The position numbers were made by a program, and so were the translations under genes. 64,000 nucleotides of DNA, taken from IMG/VR virus record IMGVR_UViG_3300047483_000537, positions 32,600 through 96,599 of that record; one strand, 5' to 3'. Position 1 is the stretch's first letter, and each line of letters begins with the position of its first letter. This stretch comes from a virus. Shown one piece after another: positions 7,552 to 62,088 of this stretch. The notes under the pieces were generated by a model, which saw only the letters and a list, made by a program, of their open reading frames with translations, did not search any database and had not been told where the DNA came from.

Positions 7552-8032
7552 TGCTTATACCTCCACTGTTTGTTTTGGTACTTGGCTGTAGGCCTTCATT
7601 AGCCTTCCAAGCAGCACGTGCTTCCGAACCAATCGACCCGTCAAATGGACAAGGGGTACCTGCCATCATCATAGCATCAAACACTCGTCTGTCTTGGCAT
7701 AGCGTGCTTACCGCAGCTACTTTCATACCCATGTCATAAAGTGTTTTTGATAATTTTAGTCGTTCACAATTAAGGTCCACTACTGTAGCACCAGCACTAA
7801 TACCCAGGATTTGAGTTTGTACAGCACCGGCTACACCAACAGTACACAAGTCACTATTGGCTGTATTAATAGTAGGACTAATAGCGGATGCTGGTGGTGA
7901 TTTAATAGTGCTGTTACTATCGGATTTAGTAGTAACAGTGCTATTGGTATTTACTACTGCATCTTGAGCTAATACTCCACTTGCAAATAGTACTAGAAGT
8001 AGTATTGCTACAAAATATTTAAGTTGAAGCAA
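7487..8032 (-). CDS. exported protein with C-terminal membrane anchor
   Basis: 181 residues: signal peptide (1-22, GVLA-Q), a Ser/Thr/Asn-rich linker (25-55), a helical domain with four cysteines (DLCTVG, NCERLKL, TLCQDRR, TPCPFDG) and a C-terminal hydrophobic stretch ending in eight leucines. The overall plan (export signal, cysteine domain, C-terminal anchor) suggests a periplasmic domain held at a membrane. Its last 22 codons overlap the start of the next gene in a different frame. Confidence 0.6.
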   Translation of the reverse strand: MLQLKYFVAILLLVLFASGVLAQDAVVNTNSTVTTKSDSNSTIKSPPASAISPTINTANSDLCTVGVAGAVQTQILGISAGATVVDLNCERLKLSKTLYDMGMKVAAVSTLCQDRRVFDAMMMAGTPCPFDGSIGSEARAAWKANEGLQPSTKTNSGGISNETKTLLGGGGLMVLLLLLLL

Positions 8033-8033
8033 C

Positions 8034-8660
8034 TTATCCTCCTAGTACATGCAATGCATGTTCGTAGTGTTTTTTCCGATCTTCTAGGCCGATAGTGCCG
8101 CCATTAATGCGCTTAGTTAGCATTAGAATATCACCAGCATCTGCCCATTGATTTAGTTTATTGGTTTCCCAAAACCAGCAGGCTGATTGTGCTGCACCTT
8201 CAAATGTTTCCAAGTATTCTGCAGCTTCTTCTACACTAATACCTAGTGAGGCTGCAAACCAAGTGTAGTTATCCTTGCCAGTTAACTGAATTAGGCCTTT
8301 ACCTGCAAAACGCCAGCCATCACCGGATTCTGGAGGTCCGTTGCCCATGCGATTAGCATATACTAAGTTGGCAATTGCTTGTTGCTTGTTGGGCATTGTG
8401 GCATATTTCTGTGCCATTTCATCCGTGGGAAAATACTTGGGAAATATTTTTCGTAGCGTGACTGCTTTGTAGTTTAGATTTTCACGTAGCGCAGTAAAGT
8501 TTCCGGATTCGTGAGCACACTGTGCTACAAAAGCAGCAATACGACGCGGAGTGTTAATCTCGTAGTCTGGCAGTAATTGAGCTAACGCCTGATGCCACTG
8601 TTTGACATAAGGGTTTTTAGGGATCAATTGTTGCAATTGAGATAATGTTAGTTCTGTCAC
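8034..8660 (-). CDS. endolysin, glycoside hydrolase family 19 (chitinase-like)
   Basis: 208 residues resembling phage GH19 lysozyme-like endolysins that cut peptidoglycan glycan strands. Key parts: the catalytic loop AHESGNFTALRENLNY with E51 and E60 as candidate acid and base, the GDGWRFAGKGLIQLTGKDNY substrate-binding segment (~115-133), and CWFWETNKLNQWAD near residue 160. No signal peptide, so release would depend on a holin. The two spanin genes lie immediately upstream, each overlapping by 4 nt, making a classic lysis cassette. Confidence 0.88.
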   Translation of the reverse strand: MTELTLSQLQQLIPKNPYVKQWHQALAQLLPDYEINTPRRIAAFVAQCAHESGNFTALRENLNYKAVTLRKIFPKYFPTDEMAQKYATMPNKQQAIANLVYANRMGNGPPESGDGWRFAGKGLIQLTGKDNYTWFAASLGISVEEAAEYLETFEGAAQSACWFWETNKLNQWADAGDILMLTKRINGGTIGLEDRKKHYEHALHVLGG

Positions 8661-9362: not shown

Positions 9363-10121
9363 TTACGATTTTATTAATCGTATTACCCTCCAACTTACAT
9401 CCAGCTCCCACCATTTTTCACCAAAATTGGGTCTGCCAGGAAACCGGTGATGATTATTATGCCAGCCTTCGCCCCACGAGAAAAAAGCCAATAAAGGATT
9501 ATTTCTACTATCGTCGGAGGTTGCATATCGTTGCATACCGTAAGTGTGTCCAAAAAAGTTAGCTGCAGCGCTGCCTAAAAAAACAAATGCCACTGGTACA
9601 AAGTGTCCAAAGATTACGCCGTTGAGTCCAAATAGCGCATACAAAGCCAGCACCCACACAATATGCAATGCTAAAAAATACTTGTGTAGTATGCGATAAA
9701 ACGGATCACGAAGCATTCTAAATACGGTTTTGCTGCGCGTTTTTTCGGAAGTTTTATAATTAAGCATCCACATATTTAGCGCACCGTTTTTAGGCGAATG
9801 AGGATCGCGGCTAGTATCAGAAAACTTATGATGATTGATGTGTTCAGCAACCCAGGAAATTGCACTACCAGTACCTGCCAAATGACCAAAAAACGCAAAC
9901 ACGCGCTCTTTCCAAATAGACATTTTAAAACTATTGTGGGTAAGGTACCTGTGAAAAGTTACTGCAATACCTAAACATCCATATAAAAAGTAAAGCGCTA
10001 CTGCAAGTGCCCAATGTGCTGCAGAGCCTCCTTGGTACAAAGCGTACGCAAGCATTGCAGTAGAGATCGCCCCAACAATCCTAAACTTTACAGGGGTCAT
10101 TGTAAAAAATGAATTAATCAT
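9363..10121 (-). CDS. fatty acid desaturase (acyl-CoA/acyl-lipid type)
   Basis: A membrane di-iron desaturase introducing a double bond into acyl chains. All three histidine boxes are present: HRYLTH (57-62), HINHH (94-98) and HNNHH (221-225), plus another conserved-looking histidine in FFGHTYG (191). Four or more hydrophobic segments surround them; the 252-residue length fits the short Delta-9-like bacterial form. It is an auxiliary metabolic gene inside the lysis/tail cluster and overlaps the upstream cupin-like gene by 4 nt. It could change membrane fluidity during infection; the substrate cannot be read from sequence. Confidence 0.9.
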   Translation of the reverse strand: MINSFFTMTPVKFRIVGAISTAMLAYALYQGGSAAHWALAVALYFLYGCLGIAVTFHRYLTHNSFKMSIWKERVFAFFGHLAGTGSAISWVAEHINHHKFSDTSRDPHSPKNGALNMWMLNYKTSEKTRSKTVFRMLRDPFYRILHKYFLALHIVWVLALYALFGLNGVIFGHFVPVAFVFLGSAAANFFGHTYGMQRYATSDDSRNNPLLAFFSWGEGWHNNHHRFPGRPNFGEKWWELDVSWRVIRLIKS

Positions 10122-61675: not shown

Positions 61676-61923
61676 TTTAAATAATATAATTGCCCGTTTG
61701 CATCACTGACTTGCTCCCTAATGAGTTATATGCTTCGTAAAATGCGATTACCAAGGTAGTTGGTGGTAGTTGTGGTTATCAAACTTGAGGACTGTCGTCC
61801 AATAGTAGCAAGACTATATGAGCCACTTAGGGGTGGCACTCATATAAAAGCACATACTGTTCCGCCCTCTAGTTGGGGAGATAGCGACTAGCGTTGATGG
61901 ACTGTTTAAGTGTGCTTTTATAT
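61676..61923 (+). ncRNA. structured RNA segment upstream of the interrupted tRNA
   Basis: No coding frame. Stems visible: ACCAA / TTGGT (about 61752-61766), GGAC-TGTC-GTCC near 61790, ATATGAG / CTCATAT (61816-61822 with 61839-61845), and a perfect 14-bp pair CATATAAAAGCACA / TGTGCTTTTATATG (61841-61854 with 61911-61924). The last two share 61841-61845 and so exclude each other. The right arm ends on the first base of the tRNA. Function unknown. Confidence 0.5.
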
Positions 61924-62088
61924 GGGTCGGTAGCTTAACTTGGTTAAAGCGCAAATCCGGACTACAAACCCTTCACCTAGTAGCCTCTCCTCTGCCGCAA
62001 GCACGAAGGTAACGGTGGGCTGAATTCGAATATACGCTTATGGGATTGTAGAATTTTAGAGAAGCAGGTTCAAGCCCTGCCTGACCCA
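61924..62088 (+). tRNA. interrupted tRNA, Tyr-like (GUA) with ~89-nt insertion in the anticodon loop
   Basis: Acceptor GGGTCGG (61924-61930) pairs with CTGACCC (62081-62087), discriminator A, encoded CCA 62089-62091. D-arm GCTTAACTTGGTTAAAGC; T-arm GCAGG-TTCAAGC-CCTGC. The half-stems CAAAT (61952-61956) and ATTTT (62053-62057) with loop TTGTAGA (62046-62052) give anticodon GUA. Removing 61957-62045 leaves a 76-nt tRNA. In the insert CTACAA-A-CCC (61962-61971) pairs with GGG-A-TTGTAG (62042-62051), covering the anticodon. One C-T mismatch at the stem base and a short variable loop (unusual for bacterial Tyr) leave doubt. Confidence 0.55.
61957..62045 (+). other. putative intron-like insertion in the tRNA anticodon loop
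   Basis: 89 nt, far below the size of group I introns and lacking their core motifs as far as I can see. Its 5' part pairs with the anticodon region. Boundaries are inferred from the standard 76-nt length and could shift by a few bases. Confidence 0.45.

Follow-up and report, generated by a model that had tools for sequence, protein, structure and literature searches.

The window analysed here, 64,000 nt from IMG/VR virus record IMGVR_UViG_3300047483_000537, carries at 61924–62091 the body of a transfer RNA (tRNA): an acceptor stem, D and T arms and CCA are present, and about 89 nt break into the anticodon region. We propose, with a probability of roughly 0.7, that this 168-nt gene (encoded CCA included; the gene and all of its parts lie on the plus strand) specifies a putative non-decoding phage RNA that pairs with copies of itself through two loops holding palindromes, termed K1 and K2, to give a homo-dimer or homo-oligomer. 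Comparison among homologous sequences establishes three features on which this proposal draws: the fold, the conservation of both loop palindromes through changes of sequence, and the fixed position of the element in the tRNA island.

A tRNA body with a junction domain in place of the anticodon loop

The same element is present in 25 IMG/VR contigs, which reduce to 20 distinct sequences of 164–185 nt and were found by searches with the neighbouring UvdE protein and with DNA patterns. At loci with tRNAs listed, it lies 3′ of tRNA-Arg(tct) and 5′ of tRNA-Pro(tgg), tRNA-Leu(tag) or tRNA-Tyr. A covariance model of the family (R1), built from 14 members, scores members at 113–182 bits (166.8 bits for the window element) and ordinary tRNAs at no more than 56 bits; because 20 homologues at one island position so far outscore ordinary tRNAs, the element is more than a product of chance. 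The tRNA body is conserved as well as the insert across the family, the whole 168–185 nt unit is inherited together, and relatives with an unbroken tRNA at this island position were not found. A more distant homologue, L037:5023–5210, occupies the matching island position and has a like architecture when read by eye. Elsewhere, a DNA search of 50,697 phage records returned, outside the element, ordinary-tRNA similarity only, and when 84,980 bacterial and archaeal genomes were scanned by pattern, the only matches were four chance ones, all unrecognised by the family model. No member was detected at this level in several relatives, including records of 90–124 kb, absences that are soft because most records are fragments. 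One candidate, L029:7309–7464, was rejected: by sequence it is the end of a transfer-messenger RNA (tmRNA), an assignment supported by a permuted-tmRNA match in that record. No earlier description of the element was found in open-licence PMC papers, and one may exist elsewhere.

Rfam recognises the element only as a weak tRNA match (RF00005, 61924–62088, 35.6 bits against a gathering threshold of 29, with a long insertion), and ARAGORN detects it only when introns are allowed, assigning it to Pro(cgg). In the 20-sequence alignment, 97.1% of cells in the named structure are paired, two-sided changes occur in 23 of the 40 pairs, and the covariation score is 0.399, compared with 0.149 for shuffled controls and at most 0.071 for slid ones. 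This alignment was fitted to the family model, which biases it towards the structure; the same pairs are read off a MAFFT alignment built without structure.

The tRNA-like part of the fold is complete outside the anticodon region. The acceptor 5′ strand GGGTCGG (61924–61930) pairs with CTGACCC at 62081–62087 (all cells paired, two-sided changes in 3 pairs), and the 3′ segment continues to 62091 with the discriminator A73 and the encoded CCA, both retained in 20 of 20 homologues. The D arm (61933–61950; GCTT/AAGC, with GG in its loop) and the T arm (62064–62080; GCAGG-TTCAAGC-CCTGC) are likewise paired in 100% of cells, each with two-sided changes in 2 pairs, and the tertiary-contact bases of tRNA are present as in RF00005. 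To this extent a preliminary description of the locus as a tRNA with acceptor, D and T arms and an 89-nt insert is borne out. The remnant of the anticodon stem (61953–61955, partner at about 62054–62057) is weak: it is mostly A-U, leaves C27 unpaired, and is paired in 84.7% of cells.

Comparison of the homologues further establishes that the insert forms a three-way junction, a conserved domain that takes the place of the anticodon loop. The domain includes an internal loop with K1 (61956–61961), unpaired in the predicted fold, and helix E, whose 5′ strand CTACAA-A-CCC (61962–61971) pairs with GGG-A-TTGTAG (62042–62051) in 94.4% of cells, with two-sided changes in 7 of 9 pairs. Helix E leads into a junction of helix F and hairpin J. 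The 5′ core of helix F (61974–61976, within TTCAC 61972–61976) pairs with 62015–62017 (93.3% paired, two-sided changes in 3 of 3 pairs), and its tip is apical hairpin H (61993–62003; TGC-CGCAA-GCA), in which a stem of 3–5 bp and varying sequence surrounds a conserved GCAA loop in all 20 homologues. Hairpin J (62018–62038) pairs GGC 62018–62020 with GCT 62036–62038 in 100% of cells, shows a two-sided CG to GC change in 8 sequences, and encloses a nearly invariant 15-nt loop, TGAATTCGAATATAC, that contains K2.

Helix E bears directly on whether the element is instead an intron-containing tRNA-Tyr(GTA), from which protein enzymes or an unknown self-splicing RNA would remove the 89-nt insert to leave a 76-nt tRNA. 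The preliminary description raised a spliced phage tRNA intron as one of two options. Removal of 61957–62045 leaves 79 nt (76 without CCA). In favour of splicing, the tRNA halves are complete, CCA included, and, in the window sequence alone, excision after T61956 yields a TTGTAGA loop with U33 and a GTA anticodon. Lak phages, moreover, have been reported to carry tRNAs with conserved "enigmatic introns", tRNA-Tyr(GTA) among them (PMC6784885). The pairing of CTACAA in the insert with TTGTAG in the anticodon region, also noted in that description, does exist and is supported by covariation, and it is this covariation that speaks against splicing. The supposed anticodon TTGTAG is the 3′ strand of helix E, and in homologues it is swapped jointly with its partner in the insert (CTGTT/AACAG, ATAC/GTAT). 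Among the homologues TTGTAGA is not kept as an anticodon loop, and neither U33 nor the anticodon is conserved. When every uniform choice of excision was tried on the 20 sequences, the best gave an anticodon stem of 4 bp or more together with U33 in only 8, the anticodon then being ATA. Of the features expected of a decoding tRNA, the family therefore has the acceptor stem, the D and T arms and the CCA end; it lacks, as a shared feature, a 7-nt loop that carries U33 and a conserved anticodon and is held by a stable stem, whether the RNA is taken directly or after excision.

Several further observations run the same way. As an intron, the insert would lie 5′ of the anticodon, whereas canonical introns interrupt positions 37/38. 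An ordinary tRNA-Tyr(gta) is encoded in the same genome (record position 7956–8037), and ordinary tRNA-Tyr(GTA) genes are also present in the five relatives examined (L024, L016, L040, L051 and L037). The Lak-B1 element, by contrast, leaves the CTGTA loop unbroken and held by a stem of 5 bp, as read by eye. Neither a tRNA-intron endonuclease (PF01974), the enzyme on which an intron of the archaeal or eukaryotic type would depend, nor RtcB was found in the 23 phage records, many of them partial and none covering the host genome; positive controls for both searches were detected. Rfam scans, at gathering thresholds or at E values up to 10, returned no match to group I or group II introns (the group II model RF01998 included), known ribozymes or riboswitches, leaving the suggested check with group I/II models negative. 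On the excision test across 20 homologues, a spliced tRNA-Tyr was rejected, and removal of the insert by any of the routes above is judged very unlikely. Support went to the other option raised at the outset, a tRNA-shaped RNA bearing an extended arm, and that arm can now be described as a conserved three-way-junction domain with two palindromic loops.

Palindromic loops as candidate sites of self-pairing

K1 (61956–61961, TCCGGA in the window) and K2 (62025–62030, TTCGAA, in loop J) are 6-nt palindromes and candidate sites of intermolecular self-pairing. Across the 20 homologues, K1 occurs as TCCGGA, GCCGGC, GCTAGC or GTCGAC and K2 as TTCGAA or TTGCAA, while L037 adds GTGCAC as a fifth K1 variant and GTCGAC as a third for K2. 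Among 162 six-column windows scanned through the alignment, K1 and K2 alone are palindromic in 20 of 20 sequences (with four and two different palindromes, respectively); the next best window is palindromic in 10 of 20, with a single sequence. Both sets of columns are unpaired in the aligning model, apart from the first base of K1, which falls within the anticodon-stem remnant, and the palindromes were therefore not imposed by the alignment. Parsimony on a UvdE tree gives at least seven K1 changes and three K2 changes, with the palindrome retained each time; as the resolution of the tree is poor and such counts would be raised by any recombination, at least four is the safe count for K1.

In these switches, adjacent bases at the centre of the palindrome covary (CG to TA, CG to GC). 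Neighbouring bases cannot pair intramolecularly, and the covariation thus points to pairing between two copies, the same argument as that made for OLE L9.3 and GOLLD L21a in a cryo-electron microscopy study of OLE, ROOL and GOLLD (PMC12286853). The element accordingly displays what is looked for in a homo-oligomeric phage RNA, namely palindromic loops that switch sequence yet stay palindromic. The 6-mer duplex energies, –7.5 to –11.7 kcal/mol for K1, are stronger than those of K2.

Certain findings weigh against self-pairing or lend it no help. K2 has few variants and a weak 6-mer duplex (–4.1 to –4.5 kcal/mol). There is some linkage between the type of K1 and the first base pair of helix E, which makes the number of independent K1 switches uncertain (at least four, with five variants including that of L037). 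The L037 element is taken as homologous more for its synteny and architecture than for its score, which at 35 bits is in the range of ordinary tRNAs. Folded as a single strand, the window element has an unremarkable and uninformative energy (z –0.17), and a 6-nt palindrome could alternatively act at the DNA level or as a site for a protein dimer.

Two other explanations build on this last point. The RNA might work as a monomer with a tRNA-like body and an extended arm, perhaps by luring tRNA-binding proteins or a defence nuclease away from real tRNAs, with the palindromes being sites for a symmetric protein or a coincidence. Equal conservation of body and insert would suit such a monomer, and palindromic loops could be favoured by selection if they were bound by a dimeric host protein; switches of sequence in which the palindrome is kept nevertheless fit base pairing better than recognition by a sequence-specific protein, and we consider the monomer unlikely. 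Alternatively, the element might act as DNA, the palindromes being recombinase or endonuclease sites inserted into a tRNA gene whose tRNA is now dead. Both are perfect palindromes in DNA, and mobile DNA often targets tRNA genes. The acceptor, D and T arms still covary, however, as do helices E, F and J in the manner of RNA, and inheritance as one unit with no uninterrupted relative at the position is a poor match for an insertion, making this explanation very unlikely indeed. A role as a tmRNA substitute was also considered and is ruled out, the same genome having a permuted tmRNA as well; tmRNA models gave no match at the element's position in the Rfam scans.

If the self-pairing RNA is the correct interpretation, its ends would be processed like those of a tRNA, by RNase P at the 5′ end and by 3′ maturation, and the RNA would stay unspliced. 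Copies would then join through symmetric K1–K1 and K2–K2 kissing contacts. With two distinct two-fold contacts per monomer, the product could be a dimer joined at both contacts, or else an oligomer, closed or open, that presents tRNA-like elbows. That such an assembly serves as a scaffold or decoy engaging tRNA-binding proteins, in a setting comparable to that of GOLLD and ROOL, is only a guess by analogy. Should the interpretation hold, phages would have converted the tRNA scaffold into a self-assembling RNA, adding a small (~170 nt) and easily synthesised example to the few natural RNA-only homo-oligomers, and the use of the multimers to phages could be probed by mutating 2–6 bases. It would also be a caution that a long tRNA predicted in a phage genome can turn out to be a structured RNA rather than a case of an intron.

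The source phage and its tRNA island

The element comes from a tailed phage whose virus record is 96,599 bases long. The large terminase of this phage shares up to 50% identity with those of T5-like Vibrio phages, among them one classified in Demerecviridae, and the same phage encodes a T5-type tail completion protein. The tRNA island extends across the record ends. Its permuted tmRNA, with the tag ANDQVYALAA, is at 9458–9845 of the record (G000), outside the window (L169); of 49 related phage records searched with the permuted-tmRNA model RF04321, 33 have a match above the cut-off, this genome included.

Other spacers in the island also form closed folds. Those flanking the element, 61842–61923 and 62089–62233, have stems of 14–17 bp; the upstream spacer is 92–95% conserved in at least eight relatives and the downstream one is conserved in L028 only. 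The ends of a 181-nt spacer at 62428–62608 are joined by a 17-bp helix (TATTGTTGTGGCCTTTG/CAAAGGTTACAACAATA), and this spacer, conserved at 96% in L016 and L018, 84% in L024, 82% in L176 and about 68% in L052 and L074, is probably another structured RNA. A 115-nt spacer at 63153–63267 has a long closing helix that begins at the CCA of the upstream tRNA and covaries across five relatives. A long closing helix is found again in the spacer at 63268–63407, which is about 80% conserved in L013 and partly conserved in L021.

Comparison with known RNAs

The element resembles tRNA (RF00005) in its acceptor, D and T arms, A73, CCA and tertiary-contact bases, and differs in having a three-way-junction domain in place of the anticodon arm and no conserved anticodon loop. 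With tmRNA, including the permuted form, it shares phage encoding and a tRNA-like acceptor and T arm joined to another domain; it differs in lacking a tmRNA model match, in its complete D stem and in having no G3-U70 alanine pair and no identified tag frame. The Lak megaphage introns are similar in that they too are long and conserved and interrupt phage tRNAs, a tRNA-Tyr(GTA) among them, in the anticodon region (PMC6784885). In the two examined by eye, Lak-B1 and Lak-A1, a normal CTGTA loop with U33 on a 5-bp stem is accompanied by a nested T-arm-like hairpin, unlike the element with its unconserved loop; this arrangement is not the same, and the Lak introns, on these two examples, were rejected as distant family members. 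In both Lak tRNA-Tyr inserts (L232, Lak-B1; L233, Lak-A1), TACAG directly follows CTGTA and creates a 10-nt palindrome, CTGTATACAG, across the anticodon.

GOLLD and ROOL provide the closest parallel in setting, as phage-encoded RNAs of unknown function that often lie near tRNA islands; together with OLE they are homo-oligomeric with kissing loops, and OLE and GOLLD show palindrome-switching covariation at self-pairing loops (PMC12286853). The T5-like relative Vibrio phage 234P1 has GOLLD in its tRNA island (L229:21203–21623), and two non-member relatives (G021 and G022) also carry it; its model (RF02032) has no match in G000 or the 22 other member records. Compared with these RNAs, several hundred nucleotides in length, the element is short (~168–185 nt) and has a full tRNA body, and its oligomer is putative. 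The chances are about even that it constitutes a new class of phage RNA, in which the anticodon arm has been turned into an oligomerisation domain, giving a defined multimer with tRNA-like elbows and a compact counterpart of GOLLD and ROOL.
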